A DNA stretch of 64,000 nucleotides, taken from assembly GCA_015179125.1 (NCBI GenBank), contig WHVA01000048.1, positions 292,622 to 356,621 of the forward strand, in the 5' to 3' direction. How positions within the stretch are numbered: position 1 is the stretch's first letter; each line of letters begins with the position of its first letter. This document shows, in pieces, positions 5,910 to 55,689 of this stretch. The notes below the pieces were generated by a model, which did no database searches, was not told the origin of the DNA, and worked only from the letters and a program-made list of their open reading frames with translations. The translations under genes and the position numbers were made by a program. This DNA comes from Gautieria morchelliformis (lineage: Eukaryota; Basidiomycota; Agaricomycetes; Gomphales; Gomphaceae).

Positions 5910-6002
5910 GACTCACCTTGTTATTAAGAAACAGATCCCTATATTCCCACTCCAGTTCGGAGTGGGAATATAGGGATCTGTTTCTTAATAACAAGGTGAG
6001 TC
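5910..6002. repeat. Hairpin 1: 44-bp perfect arms, 5-nt loop
   Basis: Arms 5910-5953 and 5959-6002 are exact reverse complements. The right arm aligns to the paralogue at about 26403-26460 (ending in ttcttaatgaaaaggtgagtc there); the left arm does not, so the left arm is an inverted copy. It joins ancestral sequence at a shared gactc. Confidence 0.9.
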
Positions 6003-6044
6003 AATCTTCTGCATCAAACTCTGACGCGCAGGTTGACGAGGATC

Positions 6045-6111
6045 CGCGCCGGCGGGTGCGAGAAATCCCAACGTCTTGAAGACGTTGGGATTTCTTGCAC
6101 CCGCCGGCGCG
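6045..6111. repeat. Hairpin 2: 33-bp arms, 1-nt loop
   Basis: Arms 6045-6077 and 6079-6111 with one mismatch. The right arm matches the paralogue (ttgcacccgccggcgcgctc at about 26511); the left arm replaces the sequence expected there. Confidence 0.9.
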
Positions 6112-6130
6112 CTCCCTCGCCTGAAACGCG

Positions 6131-6193
6131 GCTTTCGAATATCACGCAGAATTGATTGTGTAACACAATCAATTCTGCGTGATATTCGAAAGC
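6131..6193. repeat. Hairpin 3: 31-bp perfect arms, 1-nt loop
   Basis: Arms 6131-6161 and 6163-6193. The right arm matches the start of the tandem units (tgatattcgaaagtcgcgac at 28376, 28902), so again the right arm is ancestral. Confidence 0.9.
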
Positions 6194-6340
6194 TGCGACT
6201 TGGACGAGGAACGAGGATGAGTAACATGTCGCGACTCAAACCACGCCCACGGTAAGTGCTTGGCTCCTGTTTCGCGGAATATCCTCCTCACGCTCTGCTT
6301 ATCAGTGTCCCTTCGCGCGACTACTGTTGCCGTCGACATA

Positions 6341-6403
6341 AGAGGCGTAGTTACAGTTTTGGGAGGTCTGTCACAGACCTCCCAAAAATCTAACTACGCC
6401 TCT
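6341..6403. repeat. Hairpin 4: 31-bp arms, 1-nt loop
   Basis: Arms 6341-6371 and 6373-6403 with two mismatches. The right arm (cctcccaaaaatctaactacg) corresponds to the unit sequence at 30402-30425; the left arm does not. Confidence 0.88.
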
Positions 6404-8394: not shown

Positions 8395-8580
8395 CTTGCA
8401 CTACAGCTAAATTACAGTACCGATTTGTACTGAAATTTAGTCCCCAAAAAATAATTTCATACAGCACTAAAAATCAGTACTATACAAGTACTGAAATTTA
8501 GTCCCCAAAAAATAAATTTCATGCAGCACTAAAAATCAGTACTATACAAGTACTGAAATTTAGTACAGGAAAAAATGCAA
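8395..8580. repeat. CACTA left subterminal repeats
   Basis: About 65-70-bp units repeated two to three times, each holding agtactgaaatttagtcccc and cactaaaaatcagtactat. Inverted/direct copies of the aaaatcagt word recur at the right end, as expected for transposase-binding subterminal repeats. Confidence 0.75.
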
Positions 8581-8610: not shown

Positions 8611-10995
8611 CTAATCAGGATCAATCTCTGGATCCACAAACACCGTCCTGGCGAAATCGCCGCTTCTGTCCACTATGCCCCATTCATTCCCTCGCTTCAC
8701 GCGCCCGATGACGCATTCCACGGTACGCAAATCGATTACTACAGAGACCCTCGTCTCTGTGTATGTCGTTACCTCACTGGTTGCATCCTTCCCACCAGTT
8801 GAGCACGGCTGCACAACAGCTAGGAGGTGACGTTTGGGAGTTGGTAGGTTGAGAGTGTGTGAGGGCGGTAGAATAACGTCGATGATGCTAAGAAGTTGTC
8901 CATAAAACACGCGTCGCACCAATGGGTCTTCACCACGGCGAACGCGATGGTTGGGGACCATTAGTGTATACTGTATCAAAGTTGTCCTATTAATTGAATA
9001 CACAGATAAATAATCCAGGACGTACTCGGACAAATGAGGAGTCACGCGTGCCCTTGGCTTGGGTGACGCTCACCGCGCACGATGCTCTGATTTTGTCCCC
9101 TCCATTGGCTATTCGCACCTTGCCCCAACGTGTCATGGTCTGCGGGAGTTTCGTGTCGATGTAGCGGGCCTCACACTCGTAAATTTGCGCAAAATAGAGG
9201 CAAATTCGTCGCCTCAGGTCTTGATCGGGTTGATATCCGAGCCTGCGTGGTGAACGGAGGATAGAGTGCAGATCTGTAAATATCACAGTGAACCAGAAGC
9301 ACCAAGAACATAAAAAATGACTTACATTCAGGGTACAGTGTCTCAGTTGCACTGAGTGCACCTTCTACTGTCTCCGCGCTCAGATGCTCCCAGACTCGCG
9401 CATAACAAGCCTTCAGCTGGGACAATTGCGCTGAGCGTCTGATGTACATACTAAGCGTTGCATATGGGTGGAGTGGGGAATTGATGCGCGATGCCAACTT
9501 CCCACAGAAGCGTTCCATTGGGAACGCCCAAAGCGTCCATGCAGGGCCGCAACGCCGTACGTAATCCGTAATGTGAAGCATCGCGTGAATGCTGAACGTA
9601 CAAACCGGCAAATTGGTTTCTTGATATTTGTAGTACCAGCTGCCGATGTGTCAGATGGGTCAGAAGGTTGCAATTAACAAGCCACTTACTGTTCATATTG
9701 TTGAACCCAAATCACGATCATTTTTTGCAACTCGTCAATTTCTTCCTCAGTTATCGTGAACAGTAAGCACTTTTTGATAATTTTCACCAAGTCACAGAAA
9801 TGACGATAATATTTGGCGTGTGGGAAACGATCGCGCAGGAGAACCGGCCCTATGTATTGAAACCAAAACGAGGTGTATTCCGCTTTGTACTTCGAATTGG
9901 TAATATCTGGGAGTGCACCAACGAATTCAGAAGGTATGGTCTTGTACGCTTCTGCCGTCTCACGCCCTATGACTTCCCAAATGTGAGGGGCGATGCGATA
10001 CCCTGCGTCTGCCGGCTCAACATGTTTTAACTTACCCGATCCCGCCCAATGTTCAAGTAGACGGGGGTGCACACGTTCTCGAAGAATAGGTGCGTGATGT
10101 CATGGGGGAAGGAGTCGGGGAAATGGAGGGAGCGAATATCAAGGACATCCGATAAACGATTGATCCCGTAATGCAATCCTAATGCTTCTTGATGTCCGCC
10201 TGTGGTACCTTCACTGATCTCGACTAAATGGCTATCTAGATTCTCACGTGTGCGTGGCGGAAGGTTATAAGGGTCCCATCCATCATCATGTGCTTCTCCT
10301 GGACGCCGGGGAGCCTTTAAAACTGGATAGTAAGTCGTATTCTTGTTACCTGCATGGCTTAATTTCTCCCCTCGGATGAGGCAAAAACGGCACGGACAAA
10401 AGGCCTTGTGCCCCCTGAGGCACAGCAATTTGGACATTGCCGGTAGATCGCCGGAGATCATGATTAGGTACGCATGTAGATCAAAACTTGTTTTAGACTC
10501 AGCATCGTACGTCCGTATGCCATGCGCGAGTTCGGCAAGTTCTTCATTCAAAGGAATGAAGAACGAATCCAGATCCTTCGGGCTGTGGGGTCCAGGGATA
10601 ACACCAAGCGGGATGAGGTTTTCAATGTGCATCCGAATTTCAGGTGGGAGGTTGAAATTGACCAGTATAATTGGCCAGGCTGAATTGCTTTTAGATTTGC
10701 CCATAGCAGGCCGGATGGCAAAAACCTGTAGAAATCCCTTATAAGGTTGAGTACTATTTACCAAGTAATTATGAGTACTAGCCTGGAAACCGTCTGTTGA
10801 AGCCCCCAGAGCAATGTCACGTCCGTCTGAAAAGTACATGTGCCTCAGCTCGGAGCCGTCGACTATGACTAACCTCTCGAGCGATCTCGGTAAACAGTGC
10901 CGGCAAAGACGTCACTGATTTCGCCTGGCACAGTAACCCGTCGGCTCCGATATTGCAATTTCTTGATCATCGGCAGGGACTCGTACAATCACGTG
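8611..10995 (-). pseudogene. CACTA transposase (Tnp2 family), C-terminal two thirds
   Basis: Minus-strand exons of a Tnp2-type DDE transposase. From the 5' side: LYESLPMIKKLQYRSRRV and GEISDVFAG just inside 10995, an intron-like gap, then the long exon 10839-10027 with FSDGRDIALGASTDGF, VNFNLPPEIR, LIPLGVIPGPHSPKDLD and CLRGHKAFCPCRFC. The exon at 10072-9686 continues it, then 9611-9300 (CTFSIHAMLHITDYVRRCGP, WAFPMERFCGKL) matches the family's DUF4218-like part, and 9045-8611 is the C-terminus. It starts abruptly at the CCTGG duplication bordering the nested element, in frame with the N-terminal part at 15013-15900. Role: cut-and-paste of the 8359-19749 element. Confidence 0.85.
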
Positions 10996-17435: not shown

Positions 17436-19258
17436 GTGGCTGCTTACGTTTACAATACTCAGTCGCTTCCTACCACCACCGCCACCTTCCTTCGGTGCCC
17501 TCAACTACATAGCTCGGCTTATACTCATGGATCGCATACTCGACGACCCCACGAACGCGTATGGCCGATCAAAGCGCTGATCCAACAGTTCCTCAAAAAT
17601 AGCTCAGAGCTCAAATGTGCATCTGCAAGGCGGCGAGAGGAACGATTGGCCCGCCTGCCATGTGAGGAGCCTCAAGCCCTCTCTGTTGCCAATACTAGTA
17701 AGAGTGCAGTGCCAGTGTCCTCGAGCAAGTTCACCATGAGCAAGTCGGCTTCTGCAAAAAAAAAAATTCCTTCCAATGTTTCTTCAGCGAGTGCCAGTAA
17801 CTCTATGACCAAGTCTACGTCGACTAGAAAGTTGGGTTCTGTGAACAACGGGACTGCCTCGCGCAAGGGTTCGACGACGGGTGCCGGGAAGTCCTCTGAG
17901 CCAACTCGCAAGGTGCGTTTATTATTGTATATTGTAATTCTATACCTAATCAGTGAACATGGCTCGCTCGCGCAAGGGTTTGACGACGGGTGCCGGGAAG
18001 TCCTCTGAGCCAACTCGCAAGGTGCGTTTATTATTGTATATCGTAATTCTATACCTAATCAGTGAACATGGCTCGCTCGCGCAAGGGTTTGACGACGGGT
18101 GCCGGGAAGTCCTCTGAGCCAACTCGCAAGGTGCATTTATTATTGTATATCGTAATTCTATACCTAATCAGTGAACATGGCTCGCTCGCGCAAGGGTTTG
18201 ACGACGGGTGCCGGGAAGTCCTCTGAGCCAACTCGCAAGGTGCGTTTATTATTGTATATCGTAATTCTATACCTAATCAGTGAACATGGCTCGCTCGCGC
18301 AAGGGTTTGACGACGGGTGCCGGGAAGTCCTCTGAGCCAACTCGCAAGGTGCGTTTATTATTGTATATCGTAATTCTATACCTAATCAGTGAACATGGCT
18401 CGCTCGCGCAAGGGTTTGACGACGGGTGCCGGGAAGTCCTCTGAGCCAACTCGCAAGGTGCGTTTATTATTGTATATTGTAATTCTATACCTAATCAGTG
18501 AACATGGCTCGCTTGTGCAAGGGTTCGACGACGGGTGCCGGGAAGTCCTCTGAGCCAACTCGCAAGGTGCGTTTATTATTGTATATTGTAATTCTATACC
18601 TAATCAGTGAACATGGCTCGCTCGCGCAAGGGTTTGACGACGGGTGCCGGGAAGTCCTCTGAGCCAACTCACAAGGTGCATTTATTATTGTATATCGTAA
18701 TTCTATACCTAATCAGTGAACATGACTTGCTCACGCAAGGGTTCAATGACGGGTGCCGGGAAGTCCTCTGAGCCAATTGGCAAGGTGCGTTTATCATTAT
18801 ATATCGTAGTTCTATACCTAATCAGTGAACGTGACTCTCGCGCAAGGGTTCGACGACGGGTGCTGGGAATCCCCATGCAAATTTTCGTTCAGTGGGCAAT
18901 CATGACCAGGCCACCAGCTCGATGAAAAGGAAGACGCCAGAGGATGGCGAACCGTCTATTCCAGTGGCGAAACGCTATAAAACACTGGAGGATGTGCCAG
19001 CTGTAAGTACATTCACCTATTCCACTACCCAGCCGCCTAACAACTTACACTTACTTGCTTCTAGCCCATGCATGCCAAAAGGGTAAGTGAACCATTTGTT
19101 GTATATATCAGTGTTAACAGCTACAGGCTGCCTCGAAGGCCGGTGCGACAAATAAATCAGCGCCCAGGAAAACGGCTCCCAAGAAAGCCGACCCTGAGCC
19201 CAGGAAGTCAAAGCGCCAGGTTCGTGCTCCTGCAAGACCTGATGCCGACTACGAGTAG
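17436..19258 (+). CDS. CACTA accessory basic nuclear-like protein (multi-exon)
   Basis: The 3' exons are clear: MKRKTPEDGEPSIPVAKRYK (about 18921) with a bipartite basic look, a gtaagt intron after LEDVPA, a tiny exon around 19065-19083, another intron, then AASKAGATNKSAPRKTAPKK continuing to an ADYE stop at 19258. The 5' exon (to 17912) is Ser/Lys-rich with TMSKSASAKKK and STSTRKLGSVN; an ATG is available at 17736 but the true start is unclear. Between them sits a nine-copy repeat containing intron-like segments (17860-18880). Low-complexity basic composition suggests nucleic-acid binding. Position near the right end of a CACTA element suggests a second transposon-encoded protein, but no homology is recognised. 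Confidence 0.5.
17860..18880 (+). repeat. 109-bp tandem repeat, nine copies, each with an intron-like segment
   Basis: Units recur exactly 109 bp apart at 17913, 18022, 18131, 18240, 18349, 18458, 18567, 18676 and 18785 (positions of gtgcgt/gtgcat). Each unit has a coding-looking 68 bp (ggtttgacgacgggtgccgg ... actcgcaag) and a 41-bp segment that begins gtgcgt, contains ctaat and ends cag. Using the later AG in cgcgcaag gives a 45-bp exon encoding GLTTGAGKSSEPTRK in frame in every copy; using cag puts a TGA at the exon start. The outermost copies are the most diverged. Confidence 0.85.
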
Positions 19259-19259
19259 A

Positions 19260-19749
19260 CACCTCGTAACGTCCCTTTTATATCTATGCCACTTTTAACT
19301 GATTGCTAACCCATTAGTTGTTACCACTTGCACTCTCCCTACCGACTCTGGCTCTTCACATATGCTCTTCAATGACCTAGCTTGGCCCGTTCATACTACG
19401 CTCATCGGTTTACTGCTCTTACCCTCACTCGCTCTGACATGCATCGGTGTCATTCACTAACTCGTCTCTGTCCTGTTTCCATCCGGTAGCCAATAATATG
19501 TGTACCTAAAAATCAGTTCTTAATGTACTTTTTATCAGTCCTAAATAAGCTAGAATTCAGTTCATTTTGAGCTAAAAAAACAGTGCAAAGTGGGACATTT
19601 TCACTACTAGAAATCAGTTCATGGTCAAAGGGGCCGAGAACGCTTCGGGAGCTAAAAATCAGTGCTCAAGTACTGATTTTTAGCTGGTTTTGTACTGAAA
19701 CTCAAGTTCCGTTTCATCTGATTTTTAGGTGCCGGCGCTTTCTGCAGTG
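19260..19749. repeat. CACTA right subterminal region
   Basis: Non-coding. From about 19505 to 19730 the words aaaatcagt, actgatttttag and cagtt recur in both orientations, mirroring the left subterminal repeats. The embedded cactactagaaatcag at 19604 is a second CACTA-like word. Confidence 0.65.
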
Positions 19750-20032: not shown

Positions 20033-20113
20033 GTTTTGCTTCCGCAGGAAACCGAACTGGACGAACTGGTCCTGGGGCAGTTCGTCCAGTTCGTTTTGCT
20101 GCGGAAGCAAAAC
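20033..20113. repeat. Hairpin in PIF/Harbinger 1 5' region
   Basis: Arms 20033-20068 and 20078-20113 (36 bp, two mismatches), 9-nt loop. Lies between the left TIR and the transposase. Confidence 0.85.
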
Positions 20114-20544: not shown

Positions 20545-21651
20545 CCAGCCCCTACCTATTTTTCAATCAACTGGGAGGCGACCACAGCGACCGGCTGCAT
20601 TTCAACTCGCTTGCTTCCTCACTAGGTACAGTACCAGAGGTTCGGACTCTCTCAGGGTGGCACAGCAGCTTGCCATTGGCCATGGTACTGTTTTTCTATA
20701 CTGCCGTCGTATCACCCATGCACTTCGGTATTTAGGCCAGAAACATTTAGTCTGGCCAGATGAGGAGCGCAAAAAGGTGGTTCAGGATTGCTTTGAGGCA
20801 CAGTCGGGCTTCAGGGCTGTTGGAGCATGTGATGGCTCACTTATTAGGATTACTGAAGACCCACATGAGAGCCAGGGTGTGTACCGGTGTCGTAAAAATT
20901 CCCAGCGGTACGTGATTACTTTGGAAGAGATACAGACAGCTAATGTCAATTTCAGATAAATGTACAGGCTACTATTGATCATGAGAAAAGGTTTACATCC
21001 TATGATATGGGTTGGCCAGGGTCTGTGCCGGATGTATCTGTTTTCAAGGCATCGTATATTTGGAATAACCGTGCAGCACACTTCAAGCCAGGCGAGTATC
21101 TACTAGCTGACAAAGGTATGAACAAATTGGTCACAGACTACCAAAGTGTCTTCATATCAGTACATTCAGGTTACCCGTCATCACCTTACATCGTTCGACC
21201 ATTTAATGAACCAGAGATTCGGAGATGTACTTCGATAGAGAAGCAACGGCGGCATGACTTCAACAAACGGCTCTCTCATGTTCGCATATGGATAGAACAT
21301 GCATTCGGAATGCTCAAGGGCCGATTTCCTGCGCTCAAAGACATGGGGGGCGCTACGAATATTCAGGAGATATATCAAGCCGTTGAGGCACTGATGGTCA
21401 TGCATAATTTATGCATTGACATGAATGACCATCCGGAGGATATAATGGACTATGATCCTACCGATGATACAGAGTCTCAAAATGATGGGGAGGAATCAGA
21501 TGTTGACATAGGCATTCCGGTGTTTGGTCAGGCCATTCTACAACGAGTCCAGGTACCTGGGAGAGAGTCTGATGCATGGCTGCGTGCCCATGGTTTACAA
21601 AAGCGACAGCAGCTTCTAGGTCGTCTCTGCCCTCGAGACGAATACAGCTAA
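20545..21651 (+). CDS. PIF/Harbinger transposase (DDE_Tnp_4)
   Basis: Catalyses excision and integration of the 19942-23585 element. The frame before the intron has QLAIGHGTVFLYCRRITHAL (HTH-like) and AVGACDGSLIRI with the first catalytic Asp. A 44-bp intron (20912-20955, gtgatt...ttcag) joins SQRY to INVQATIDHEKRF. The second exon has GWPGSVPDVSVF (second Asp), YLLADKG and RIWIEHAFGMLKGRF (catalytic Glu), ending in an acidic C-terminus at 21651. All three acidic residues are present. Upstream exon(s) before about 20545 are unresolved: the frame there (20229-20735) seems to need another splice to supply the N-terminus. Possibly still functional. Confidence 0.82.
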
Positions 21652-25682: not shown

Positions 25683-25813
25683 ACTTCATGCAGGGGGTCA
25701 TCACGTGACTGATGCCTTGGTGACGTAATTTTACCCCAGACCAATGCTATTAATATTTTCATCTAGCCTTCGGGCGCTGCGACAGTCTCAGACACGACCG
25801 TCGTGTCCGCTGA

Positions 25814-25906
25814 AATAAATATTCGCGAATGTTCAGCAGGACCGACGGCATCTGGTGGCGGCCACTAGATGCCGTCGGTCCTGCTGAACATTCGCAAATA
25901 TTTATT
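25814..25906. repeat. Hairpin 5: 46-bp arms, 1-nt loop
   Basis: Arms 25814-25859 and 25861-25906 with two mismatches. A smaller palindrome (gacacga/tcgtgtc, 25791-25807) lies just before it. Located between the J-protein gene start and family X copy B. Confidence 0.9.
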
Positions 25907-25953
25907 GCAGTAGGATGGCATCCGCAATCGCCCACTAGCTGCTCGGGCACTGT

Positions 25954-26025
25954 CTTCTGCGTCAAGAGAGTAGCGAGTCGGATGTGACCAGCCACATCCG
26001 ACTCGCCACTCTCTTGACGCGGAAG
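25954..26025. repeat. Hairpin 6: 33-bp arms, 6-nt loop
   Basis: Arms 25954-25986 and 25993-26025 with two mismatches, ending directly before the conserved family X leader ttctacaggtcgcgagacag. Confidence 0.88.
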
Positions 26026-26071
26026 TTCTACAGGTCGCGAGACAGCCTTAGCGGCTGACAGGCAGGAATGG

Positions 26072-26079
26072 TATAAGTA
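26072..26079 (+). promoter_or_regulatory. TATA-like box of family X copy B
   Basis: tataagta about 95 bp before the ATG at 26174, conserved with 5650-5657. Confidence 0.4.
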
Positions 26080-26173
26080 TTTGCTCTGTCGAGCTAGGAC
26101 CCCCCAAGTGCTCTCCAGAGTACTTCTTTCCCCGTACATCTTTACCATTCAGAATCCCTTAAGCGTTCATAAC

Positions 26174-27136
26174 ATGTTCCAATTCTCTCGCATGATCGTG
26201 GCCGTGAAGGAGGCGTTCATTCGTAGTGTTGCCCTGGTGTGGCCGTGCGCGGTCACCGACCAGGAGCCAGTAGCCGGCAGCGATCCCGGTGCCTCAGCGG
26301 TCGACAAGACCTCGGACTCGTCGACTATGACGGTTCCCGCCCCGCCGCCTCTCGTCATCCCCACAATAATCATAACGGATTATGATGCAGAAAAAGCTGG
26401 CTTGCGCTCCGACGTAGAATGGCAGTATAAAAATTTATTTCTTAATGAAAAGGTGAGTCGATCTTTGGCATCAAGCTCTGACGCGCAGGTTGGCGAGGAT
26501 CCCAAGTCTCTTGCACCCGCCGGCGCGCTCCCTCGCCTGAAACGCCAAAAGAGGGTCACGCCGAGGAGGACCGCTGAGCAGCGGCCGCATTGTGTATGCA
26601 TCGCATTGTTCACATCACCTGATATATGCTCACGATCGGAACAGGGACTTCCAAGTCCTGGAGGAATCGCTGTCGTGGCGCCTCCCACCACGCGCGGAGG
26701 TCTTCGGACGACTGCAAAGTCGCCCAAGATCTGTCCGGAACGCAAGAAGTGGGGTGCCCCGAGGAGGACCGCTGAGCAGTGGCCGGATTATGTATGCATC
26801 GCATTGTTCACGTCACCTGATATATGCTCACGATCAGAACAGGGACCCCTCCCGGATCCAATTCCTGGAGGATTCGTTATCGTGGCGCCTCCCACCACGC
26901 ACGGTCTTCGTACGACCGCAAAGATGCTCAAGATCCCTCCGGACATGTTCCATTACATCTATACGACGGTGGCCAAATATACTGCGCAGGAGACGTATCG
27001 TCCTTCTCACGAGGGAATGAGCTTCATTAGTAAATTTTACGGGCATAGAATTCACGACCAGCGCTCCTATGATGCGTGGCTTGGATGGAAGGCCAAGCGT
27101 CCTGCGGAGGAGCGTGTGTTGTGGGTTGTGGAATGA
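26174..27136 (+). CDS. Family X protein, copy B (unrecognised)
   Basis: Open frame of 320 codons from the ATG at 26174 (MFQFSRMIVAVKEAF). No known domain is recognised. Visible features: a Pro-rich segment (PAPPPLVIPTIII), a charged block (LPRLKRQKRVTPRRTAEQ), and an internal tandem duplication of 198 bp (66 codons): RRTAEQ...SPDICSRSEQG...VVAPPTT...LRTTAK occurs twice. Within each repeat unit a 51-bp piece (26594-26644 and 26792-26842) begins gtatgc and ends aacag; it has no stop and a length divisible by three, so it could be either intron or coding. The C-terminus (FHYIYTTVAKYTAQETYRPS... WLGWKAKRP) is non-repetitive. A second, broken copy lies at 5.6-6.4 kb and related units follow at 27.9 kb. 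Could be a repeat-associated gene rather than a host gene. Confidence 0.5.
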   Translation: MFQFSRMIVAVKEAFIRSVALVWPCAVTDQEPVAGSDPGASAVDKTSDSSTMTVPAPPPLVIPTIIITDYDAEKAGLRSDVEWQYKNLFLNEKVSRSLASSSDAQVGEDPKSLAPAGALPRLKRQKRVTPRRTAEQRPHCVCIALFTSPDICSRSEQGLPSPGGIAVVAPPTTRGGLRTTAKSPKICPERKKWGAPRRTAEQWPDYVCIALFTSPDICSRSEQGPLPDPIPGGFVIVAPPTTHGLRTTAKMLKIPPDMFHYIYTTVAKYTAQETYRPSHEGMSFISKFYGHRIHDQRSYDAWLGWKAKRPAEERVLWVVE

Positions 27137-27850
27137 GCTCTGTTGGCTGAAAGAAAATGCAGTACGCAATTCACAATTTTTGATTGGTCCTCGCCATATA
27201 ACCATCTTGTTTCCAGCACCCTCTCAAAAAAAAAAAAAAAAACTTTTGTTGCCATCTCGTTTCCAGAAACCGTAATTTTTTATTCAACATTAATAATGAC
27301 GTGCTCCTCTGTCCCTTTTTTTTTTTTTTTTTTTTTATATCCATTTTTATCTATTGAGCATCTGTCCCTTTTCGTAGGTAAGCAAAGCGTAAGTATAGTC
27401 TCGCATTCCCACTCTCATTCGTTTTGGAAACACGGGGACCTGGACCGAGGAAGAAGGCGGGGAGCGCGTGGAAAGACCGTGGGTGGGTGCCGTGGACGGT
27501 GCCGTGGACGGGGACGTCGATGGGGGAGAGCGGGAGGGGCGGGGAGGAGAAGAAAGGCTGCGAGAGGCGGTATAAGGATTTGAACGGGAGTGGAATTTGA
27601 ACGGCCTGCGTGAGTGTCTCCCCGCGCCCCCACCCGAGCCGGAGGAGGCGTCGCTGATAGAACCCGTAGAGATCCTGAACAGGCCCACGACTTATTAATA
27701 TGCTTCAAAGTCAGTTCCGTTGTTATAGCGGAATACCTACTTATGTTTCATTTCATCCCTCAGTGTCCCTTCGCGCAATTATTGTTGCTGCCGACGTCAG
27801 ACCACACAAAAATGCAAACTACGCGGCAACGCTCAAGACATTTTGCTCTA
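27137..27850. other. Low-complexity interval after family X
   Basis: No gene supported. Contains homopolymer runs (A at about 27227-27241, T at about 27317-27335) and a G-rich, Arg-coding stretch (27430-27560) that gives unconvincing frames on both strands. Confidence 0.45.
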
Positions 27851-27855
27851 CTCAG

Positions 27856-30123
27856 AAAGCCGCGACTTGGACCGGGAAGGAAGACGAGTAACATATCACG
27901 ACTCAACCCACGTCCACGGTAAGTGCTTCGCTCCTGTTTGGCGGAATATCCTCCTCATGCTCTGCTTATCAGTGTCCCTTCGCGCAACTACTGTTGCCGT
28001 CGACACACAGACCCCCCCTAAATGTAACTACGCGTCTCATGCGGTATTTCAATCAAGATTTCGGTTGCTTGTCCCCCTGCCTTCCCCTCTCGATCCTGCA
28101 GATTCACATAGCCGTCGTTCGATGTCCCTCTTCCCGTATGGCGAGGAGCTTGCCGGATACCCTCCGGGGTGTTTTGGATCGTCTCCTAAGCGTACATGGA
28201 AGGGGTGTGCCTCTCAACGGCGGTCGGATGGTGTTTGCAGTCCTGATCGGGTCGGAAAGAGGCAGGTGGCTGGAGTGGAGATTGGGGTACCGGAGTGCGA
28301 TATGGGGTGAGCAGCAGACTCCAGCGGCACAAAGACAATCGGCAACGCTCAAGACATTTTGCTCTGCTCAACGTGTGATATTCGAAAGTCGCGACTTGGA
28401 CGAGGAACGAGGATGAGCAATATCACGACTCAAACCACGTTCACGGTAAGTGTTGGCTCCTGTTTAGCGGAATACCCTCATCATCCTCTGCTTATCAGTG
28501 TCCCTTCGCGCAACTACTGTTGCCGTCGACATACGGACCCCCCAAGATGTAACTACGCGTCTCATGCGGTATTTCAATCAAGATTTCGGTTGCTTGTCCC
28601 CCTGCCTTCCCCTCTCGATCCTGCAGATTCACATAGCCGTCGTTCGATGTCCCTCTTCCCGTATGGCGAGGAGCTTGCCGGATACCCTCCGGGGTGTTTT
28701 GGATCGTCTCCTAAGCGTACGTGGAGGAGGAGTACCTCTCAACGGCGGTTGGATGGTGTTTGCAGTCCTGATCGGGTCGGAAAGAGGCAGGTGGCTGGAG
28801 TGGAGATTGGGGTACCGGAGTGCGATATGGGGTGAGCAGCAGACTCCAGCGGCACAAAGACAATCGGCAACGCTCAAGACATTTTGCTCTGCTCAACGTG
28901 TGATATTCGAAAGTCGCGACTTGGACGAGGAACGAGGATGAGCACATATCACGACTCAAACCACGTTCACGGTAAGTGCTGGCTCCTGTTTAGCGGAATA
29001 CCCTCATCATCCTCTGCTTATCAGTGTCCCTTCGCGCAACTACTGTTGCCGTCGACACACAGACCCCCCCAAAACTGTCACTACGCGTCTCTATACGGTA
29101 TTTCAATCAAGATTTCGGCTGCCTGTCCCCCTGCCTTCCCCTCTCGATCCTGCAGATTCACATAGCCGTCGTTCGATGTCCCTCTTCCGTATGGCGAGGA
29201 GCTTGCCGGATACCCTCCGGGGTGTTTTGGATCGTCTCCTAAGCGTACGTGGAGGAGGAGTACCTCTCAACGGCGGTTGGATGGTGTTTGCAGTCCTGAT
29301 CGGGTCGGAAAGAGGCAGGTGGCTGGAGTGGAGATTGGGGTACCGGAGTGCGATATGGGGTGAGCAGCAGACGCAAGCAGCACAAAGACAATCGGCAACG
29401 CTCAAGACATTTTGCTCTGCTCAACGTGTGGTATTCGAAAGTCGCGACTTGGACGAGGAACGAGGATGAGCACATATCACGACTCAAACCACGTTCACGG
29501 TAAGTGCTGGCTCCTGTTTAGCGGAATACCCTCATCATGTTCTGCTTATCAGTGTCCCTTCGCGCAACTACTGTTGCCGTCGACATACGGACCCTACGCG
29601 TCTCTATACGGTATTTCAATCAAGATTTCGGCTGCCTGTCCCCCTGCCTTCCCCTCTCGATCCTGCAGATTCACATAGCCGTCGTTCGATGTCCCTCTTC
29701 CCGTATGGCGAGGAGCTTGCCGGATACCCTCCGGGGTGTTTTGGATCGTCTCCTAAGCGTACGTGGAAGGGGAGTACCTCTCAACAGCGGTTGGATGGTG
29801 TTTGCAGTCCTGATCGGGTCGGAAAGAGGCAGGTGGCTGGAGTGGAGATTGGGGTACCAGAGACGGATATGGGACGAGCAGCAGCACTCGAGACAAGCTG
29901 CCATGCTCTAAAATAACCAGAAACGCCGAGCCGCGTGGGGTCACACCCACATCAAACCCGACTGCTGCCCCGATGGGCAGCGAGTCTGGGGCGGCGAACC
30001 TCGGGAGCCAGGCCAGTGACAAGAGAGCCGGCCGACGAGGAGGGGGGGGTTTTAGTGGGTAAAAACCCCACACTGTTCTTCCTCAAAGGAAGTTCGTCTG
30101 CCAGCAGATTTCCCCTCCCTGGC

Positions 30124-30155
<32 letters not shown>

Positions 30156-30800
30156 AAAACTAAAAAAAAAAAAAAAAAAAAACAATCGGCACCGCTGAAG
30201 ACATTTTGCTCTGCTTAAACATAATCAGCTCTGTGTAATATTCGAAAGCCGCGACTTGGACCAGGAACGAGGTAATAAGCAACATATCACGACTCAAACC
30301 ATGTTCACGGTAAGTGCTTGCCTTCTGCTTAGCAGAATATCCTCCTCATGCTCTGCTTATCAGTGTCCTTTCGCGCAACTATTGTTGCCGTCGACATACA
30401 GACCCCCAAAAAATGTAACTACGCCTCTCTATATGGTATTTCAATCAAGATTTCGGTCGCCTGCCCCCCTGCCTTCCCCTCTCGATCCTGCACATGGACG
30501 CTGCTCTACGTCCCACTTCCCGCATGGCGAGGAGCTTGCCGGATACCCTCCGGGGTGTATTGGATCGTCTCCTAAGCGTACGTGGAAGGGGTGTGCCTCT
30601 CAACGGCGGTCGGATGGTGTTTGCAGCCCTGATAGGGTCGGAAAGAGGCAAGTGGCTGGAGTGGAGATTGGGGTACCGGAGAGAGATATGGGGATCAGCA
30701 GACTCAAGCAGCACAAAGACAATCGGCAACGAGATATTTTACTCTGCTCAAACATCATCAATTCCGTGTGATAGTCGAAAGGCGCGAGTTGGACCAGGAA
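27856..30800 (+). repeat. Tandem array of about 525-bp family X units (five copies)
   Basis: Units start near 27856, 28381, 28906, 29434 and 30241 (the word ttcgaaag(t/c)cgcgacttgg); spacings 525, 525 and 528 bp, with the fourth unit cut at about 29910 and the fifth displaced by a poly(A) retroposon. Each unit has an ATG (at ggatgagca), an intron-like 53-56 bp segment (gtaagtgc...ctgcttatcag), and a frame encoding MARSLPDTLRGVLDRLLSV then GSERGRWLEWRLGY. Differences between units in this frame are partly synonymous, favouring it over the other open frames. The TGA ending one frame overlaps the ATG of the next unit (atga). Frame across the intron is kept in some units and broken in others, so most copies are probably not functional. 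Confidence 0.75.
29930..30182 (+). mobile_element. Poly(A)-tailed retroposon fragment
   Basis: A 190-bp GC-rich segment (ccgatgggcagcgagtctgg ... ctgccagcagatttcccctc) unlike its neighbours ends in about 57 nt of nearly pure A (30126-30182), then the family X unit resumes. This is the form of a 5'-truncated LINE or a SINE inserted by target-primed reverse transcription. No clear target duplication was found, and no reading frame for reverse transcriptase is present. Confidence 0.45.
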
Positions 30801-31301
30801 CTTAGAATGAGTAACATAGATTTTCTGAAGCAACACATGAATTGCACTCATTAAAATATTTGCCATTGAACAAATGCGACACCGTGAGCCGCTGCAATTT
30901 TTCGCAAACCTTTTCGTTCTTTTCGAGGATTCGTCTGCTATATCATGATTATCGGTAGCGCCCGTCCCTGACTCCTCTTCATAGCGCGGGATATAAAAAG
31001 AGCACAGCCAAAAATAACGACGCGGGGGAAAAATTGATGCCGAACTCGAGATAATGATGGGAATCGCGGAAAGGTACTATAATACAATAGGGCCTATCAC
31101 AGTAGCGGTTTTGATGGGGATTTGAGAAGGCGTTTCGTGCCCGAAACCGACCCAAATTCCCAAAGCGCCTCTGGAGGCGATTTGGAAAAGTCGCGTCGTT
31201 TTGGATTTGGATTTCGGCCGGCACACCTAGCGGAGCTCCAAAGGCTGTCGCCATCTGCTACACCTTCTGAGCTGCCACATCATCGCATCGCCTTCCGAGA
31301 T

Positions 31302-55609: not shown

Positions 55610-55689
55610 ACTGATATGGTGAAATGGTATCATGCTTGCCTTCCGCTACGTCATAGCAAGCGGCCGGGGTTCGATTCCCCGTGTGCGTA
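55610..55689 (+). tRNA. tRNA-Gly(TCC) with short intron, acceptor stem imperfect
   Basis: Recognised by the A-box-like tggtgaaatggtatca and B-box ggttcgattcc. Anticodon stem cttgc (55635-55639) pairs with gcaag (55656-55660); the loop gives anticodon TCC at 55642-55644, with about 9 nt (55646-55654) as an intron in the usual position after base 37. T-stem cggggttcgattccccg is perfect. The acceptor stem (actgata with tgtgcgt) has two mismatches and one wobble, so the gene may be decaying. Confidence 0.6.

Follow-up and report, generated by a model that had tools for sequence, protein, structure and literature searches.

How did four near-perfect hairpins come to lie one after another between positions 5910 and 6403 of this stretch of DNA from the false truffle Gautieria morchelliformis? 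The stretch, called the window here, is the terminal 64 kb of a contig 356,621 bases long, in a genome of 122 Mb. At a probability of roughly 60%, we read the hairpins as mutational scars of fold-back repair, in which one end of a break bends back on itself, its own sequence is copied, and the end is then reattached via 0-5 nt of homology.

The four hairpins and their gene family

All four hairpins of the initial annotation were found, with the short loops that it had described (5, 1, 1 and 1 nt). Numbered H1 to H4 from left to right, they have arms of 44, 33, 35 and 31 bp; the arm of H3 had been given as 31 bp. H2 can be extended to 41-nt arms at 90% (6037-6119) and H3 to 47-nt arms at 87% (6115-6209). 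Scored with +1 for matches and -2 for mismatches, H1 to H4 reach 44, 30, 32 and 25. The best score in 40 dinucleotide shuffles of the window was 13, and a score of 18 was reached in 0/40. Three more hairpins of the window score at least 18 and had been missed before (20033-20113, 25810-25910 and 25954-26025).

H1 to H4 sit in copy A of an orphan gene family, at about 5.0-7.0 kb. This copy is a shortened relative of copy B (23.8-31 kb), and the further copies C, D and E are the loci L009, L010 and L011 (Table 1). With the 5' region and coding part of copy B as query (25954-27200) we obtained 46 matches on 20 contigs, a count that covers only the best candidates scored and in which several matches can fall in one locus. 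The hand-spliced product of copy B is identical to the hypothetical protein JB92DRAFT_3109966 of G. morchelliformis, its sole hit, and its introns are thus borne out by an annotated protein. No Pfam family was found at E 0.01 in the 351-aa frame at 26081-27136.

Elsewhere the window holds a tandem repeat with a 109-bp unit (17858-18869, 9.3 copies, 96% matches) and transposase reading frames at 10027-10839 and 21007-21651 (Transposase_21 (tnp2), DDE_Tnp_4). A phage search gave no match, and the sole Rfam match was a tRNA at 55610-55689, which ARAGORN did not report. At L036, L042 and L043, paired copies of the family 5' region lie head-to-head, about 0.2-0.9 kb apart.

Table 1. Hairpins, arms and family features in the window; ancestral and inverted states are as read from paralogue alignments.
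Feature	Position	Strand	Observation
H1	5910-5953/5959-6002	+	44/44 paired, loop AGTTC
H1 left arm	5910-5953	+	inverted copy of 5959-6002; B, C and E keep 95-97 nt in its place
H1 right arm	5959-6002	+	ancestral exon 1 end and intron 1 5' splice site
H2	6045-6077/6079-6111	+	32/33 paired, loop G
H2 left arm	6045-6077	+	inverted insertion; 1-nt homology at left join, read by hand
H2 right arm	6079-6111	+	ancestral exon 2 start
H3	6127-6161/6163-6197	+	34/35 paired, loop A
H3 left arm	6127-6161	+	inverted copy; 26545-like end meets 30218-like tandem unit; 3-nt homology CGC
H3 right arm	6163-6197	+	ancestral tandem-unit start
H4	6341-6371/6373-6403	+	29/31 paired, loop C
H4 left arm	6341-6371	+	inverted insertion into CGACATACAGACC
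H4 right arm	6373-6403	+	ancestral tandem-unit sequence
Hairpin upstream of copy B promoter	25810-25910	+	47/50 paired, loop 1; no paralogue informative on polarity
Hairpin at copy B promoter	25954-26025	+	31/33 paired, loop 6; right arm ancestral
Copy B, annotated family member	26174-27136	+	spliced product 274 aa; no hairpin scoring at least 14 in the coding part
Tandem units, ~530 bp each, downstream of copy B	27824-30817	+	show pre-event state of H3 and H4

Pre-event states and age of the arms

The state before each event was read from alignments with the paralogues B, C, D and E. These show that the right arm is the ancestral one in H1 to H4 and the left arm is its inverted copy. The H1 right arm is present in B, C and D together with its right flank, and in E as the arm plus 9 nt. 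That of H2 is whole in D and represented by 25/33 nt in C and 19/33 nt in B, that of H3 is whole in the tandem units of B and C, and that of H4 was found in units of these two copies. The paralogues were also checked for left arms in place. Left arms match in reverse complement, i.e. as the right arm, and the only plus-strand alignments over any left arm are gapped ones spanning the whole of H4. The proposal that the right arms align with related copies and the left arms do not is thus borne out for all four hairpins among B to E, as is inverted copying of downstream sequence with one polarity throughout copy A.

The initial annotation also held that each left arm had replaced what was there. 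This is true of H1, where B, C and E have 95-97 nt and D has 159 nt in the place of left arm plus loop, but H2 and H4 are near-pure insertions. In copy D only 3 nt separate the left flank of H2 from the complete right arm, which makes the left arm an insertion; in B and C the right arm is incomplete. H1 and H3 coincide with deletions, and the sequence lost at H3 amounts to 3.7 kb in copy B terms. Read by hand, homology at the left joins of H1 to H4 is 5, 1, 3 and 0 nt, the first being the shared GACTC already described; no homology was seen at the left join of H4.

These junctions bear on the main rival to fold-back repair, namely replication template switching (TSM or MMBIR), in which a stalled polymerase would have copied about 30-57 nt of the nascent or opposite strand and returned, without a double-strand break. 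It gives the same product, and the near-pure insertions H2 and H4 require no break, but the losses at H1 (95-97 nt) and H3 (3.7 kb in copy B terms) coincide with the hairpins. A reverse-complement copy explained by four switch points fits H1 to H4, while two events elsewhere in the family, D3305 and L041, need more switches. Serial switches at these two events would suit the mechanism, and copying of the opposite strand would put no constraint on loop size. On the other side, an inverted filler from the other flank at event C1403 suggests two ends. We regard this explanation as possible but unlikely. The earlier proposal of snap-back template switching in DNA or cDNA stands as regards inverted downstream copying; its cDNA variant was rejected because the copies retain intron sequence as well as a 5' region resembling a promoter.

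The arms of copy A still pair at 139/143 positions. Comparison of the four differences with the paralogues places the older base in the right arm at H2. Of the two H4 differences, one has the older base in the left arm and the other is ambiguous. At H3 the left-arm base occurs in 5/6 units shown, and the right-arm T is common to one (C:8930). The arms have evolved apart since the event, as those of an artefact would not. Fold-back chimaeras from assembly or library preparation have the same shape, and the available text of the genome paper describes the sequencing of its entire set no further than as 'Illumina and/or PacBio' (PMC7550596). However, the arm with the older base changes from site to site, and similar but more decayed hairpins occur in family copies on other contigs, so that we consider an artefact extremely improbable. 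With 139/143 positions pairing, several events on one molecule, as had been proposed, are possible for copy A. Hairpins in other copies, which range from intact (16/16 at L041) to decayed (35/41 at L039), suggest repeated events over time.

Recurrence and polarity in the family

Copies C, D and E each carry hairpins of their own. The hairpin at the copy B promoter is common to copy E, where 51/57 positions pair, and contains the repeated promoter motif GAGTCGGATGTGGC. Repeats of this motif upstream of family promoters were seen at 25969-26006 of the window, at L038:288-552 (both orientations) and at L041:324-466, and the motif is possibly a regulatory site.

Nine further loci were taken from the 46 matches regardless of hairpins, although the query itself includes the copy B promoter hairpin. 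In their 16,717 bases we counted 9 hairpins with a score of at least 13, at 8/9 loci. The background is one contig, the window's own (C537), with 7 such hairpins in C537:1-200000 and 1 in 30 kb (three other 10-kb pieces). Hairpin density in the family is thus about 15 times that in these 230 kb; 0.58 hairpins would be expected in 16.7 kb, and the Poisson probability of at least 9 is 1e-8. At score 16 there are 4 in the 16.7 kb of the nine loci against 4 in the 230 kb of background, and at score 24, 1 against 2. A stricter count, which leaves out three paired promoter motifs, one MITE-like case and one GC-rich case, retains 4 hairpins in the nine loci (P 0.003).

A foldback transposon or MITE was rejected as the source, since the arms of H1 to H4 match family loci only: searched against the whole genome, they gave 29 matches on C537, C286 and C322 among the best candidates, all of them family loci, and the paralogue alignments gave the same picture. 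As a separate observation, a short MITE-like repeat with a TCAGTACT-like end occurs in tandem at 8427-8564 of the window and as a small hairpin at 19650-19685 and at L042:1875-1910. Hairpins with an adjacent inverted copy are also found in other sequence families, at L022:3193-3247 and L017:8551-8689, and the process that makes them is not confined to this gene family.

Among the family events with a telling paralogue, the right (downstream) arm is ancestral in 10/11 (two-sided p 0.012): H1 to H4, C1403, D2506, D3305, E2429/B25954 (one event), L036-2011 and L039-1422. L041-694 has the opposite polarity, with the left arm ancestral. E2429/B25954 was kept despite its promoter motif; left out were B25810, C9079, W20033 and L039-336 (no telling paralogue), L009-7395, L037 (part of a longer inverted repeat), L042-1875 (MITE-like), and L035-358, L038-287, L040-1150 and L010-3878 (paired promoter-type motifs). 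When copy A is counted once the ratio is 7/8 (p 0.07), and without the promoter-motif hairpin it is 9/10 (p 0.02). Outside the family, the left arm is ancestral at L022 and L017 in the orientation fetched. A strictly fixed polarity was therefore rejected; the bias, not being absolute, is suggestive in the sequences compared. Under template switching it would fit a fixed fork or transcription direction, as discussed in the accessible part of PMC8794818.

Across the 16 hairpins tabulated the median arm is 42, and the commonest loop size is 1 nt (7/16). Hairpin-capped break ends with a 1-nt loop are made by hAT-type transposases, and if such ends were opened far from the tip, long palindromic P-nucleotides would result. 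The loop sizes agree with this, and D2506 is flanked by TCAT on both sides. However, known footprints of such breaks are only a few nt, we saw no common target-site length by eye, and several copied pieces would be required at D3305 and L041; we think this origin very improbable.

Inverted insertions fall inside the reading frame of several family copies. A stop codon lies at the hairpin left join in copy C and at the hairpin centre in copy D, while in copy A a stop precedes the hairpins and copy E has stops without a hairpin there. From these stops, and from the coding part of the annotated copy B, where no hairpin scores at least 14, the hairpins look like scars in decaying copies and not kept features, although the initial damage to a given copy may have had another cause. 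A contrary view is that the inverted copies were selected because they give rise to small RNAs antisense to the family. The left arms do have this orientation, and matches to Piwi (3 contigs) and Dicer_dimer (2 contigs) occur in the genome, so that transcripts of the hairpins might in principle enter an RNA interference pathway. Yet arm sequences and positions vary among copies, some hairpins are decayed (L039 and, with 23/28 paired, L037), and selection for silencing predicts no polarity, which leaves this view scarcely credible.

Proposed fold-back repair and its relation to known systems

Fold-back repair could account for these features as follows. A double-strand break or broken fork would leave a downstream end, whose antisense 3' strand would fold on itself. 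The folded 3' end would prime synthesis by a replicative polymerase and then unwind, and end joining would then link the extended end to the upstream one, the intervening sequence being lost in some events and kept in others. Such events would have recurred in copies of one gene family.

In its favour, the pre-event states in the paralogues appear to preserve possible fold points. The H1 fold point reads CTCC-GACGT-GGAG (stem CTCC-N5-GGAG) in B, C and E and forms a 6-bp stem in D (CACTCT-GACAT-AGAGTG), so this small stem is older than the event, and the H2 site in several paralogues contains a 7-bp stem (ATCCCAA-GACG-TTGGGAT). The insertion is the reverse complement of directly adjoining DNA in the family events, and the far join has 0-5 nt of homology at H1 to H4; C1403 and D2506 carry 10 and 8 nt of filler instead. 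Read by hand, the C1403 filler is an inverted copy from the left flank, D3305 consists of three successive inverted copies and L041 of two, one from each side. The C1403 filler and the serial copies of D3305 resemble multi-step templated repair.

By eye, a priming stem is clear at H1 and displaced at H2, and none was seen at H3, H4, D2506 or L039; for L039-1422, paralogues keep the loop ATATTC without a stem left of it. The main point that fold-back repair leaves unexplained is the 1-nt loop, which cannot be directly self-primed and requires either that a nucleotide was trimmed or added without a template, or that another strand was copied; a rule for the loop base (the ancestral base or its complement) failed by hand across H2, H3, H4 and D2506. 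Clustering and the polarity bias are likewise unexplained, as random breaks predict no polarity, yet 10/11 events agree. The copied arms also exceed most of those in yeast (about 5-34).

A six-frame domain search of the genome, which could miss intron-split domains, gave one match to DNA_pol_A, in the same 1312-aa frame as a DNApol_Exo match, the layout of mitochondrial Pol gamma; no Pol theta was therefore detected. It is conceivable, if doubtful, that a transcription-linked process with biased polarity has its hotspot in this family. In such a process the antisense 3' end of a break would switch again and again onto the strand it belongs to, and one untemplated nucleotide would yield the 1-nt loops. 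A fungus without detected Pol theta would then keep writing hairpins into one family and inactivating it.

Inverted-copy repair errors are of a known kind; their density here seems unusual. By title, literature on template switching, palindromes and foldback inversion in fungi or basidiomycetes and on pseudogene families yielded no such scars. The foldback insertions of the papers cited below come from engineered yeast breaks, whereas the Gautieria family is natural, has many copies and preserves several such events alongside the sequence that preceded them. This makes it possible to measure priming stems, loop sizes, homology at the joins and strand bias in a fungus without detected Pol theta. 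The events also represent one route by which a single step can create a near-perfect hairpin, from which small-RNA genes may be built.

The closest counterpart is found in yeast, where, according to the available text of PMC11724301, fold-back of one end, with Pol delta and NHEJ, yields local inverted insertions between 2 and about 150 bp long, and POLQ is not required. They depend on Pol32/Pol delta and NHEJ, and the far join has 0-5 nt of homology (median 2). As in Gautieria, the inverted copy lies beside the break and capture of the opposite end involves 0-5 nt of homology. However, most yeast insertions measure 5-34 bp, and one site has a loop of 41 nt, whereas ours are mostly 31-57 nt (16 nt at L041), lie directly beside their source and have loops of 1-8 nt; moreover, the Gautieria events have been fixed in evolution and are clustered in one gene family. 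In the foldback inversions of sae2/mre11 yeast (PMC7467729), synthesis is also primed at a resected end by a hairpin whose loop is short, with medians of 3 and 4 nt, but these inversions yield gross chromosomal rearrangements, and here small interstitial insertions are found.

Templated filler at short-homology joins is shared with theta-mediated end joining (PMC9779921), a pathway that its accessible text defines by Pol theta, of which none was detected here. The template switch mutations of PMC8794818 likewise produce a near-perfect hairpin from a reverse-complement copy in a single event, and strand bias is discussed there; in the part of that paper available, the cases were inferred in RNA genes, whereas the Gautieria events lie in decayed members of a protein-coding family, and some of their sites have also lost sequence. 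Symmetrical stwintrons and introner-like elements also place inverted repeats, of 45-55 nt, in fungal genes (PMC8469720). To judge from the excerpted source, these belong to one proliferating sequence family, whereas each Gautieria hairpin is made of its own local sequence.
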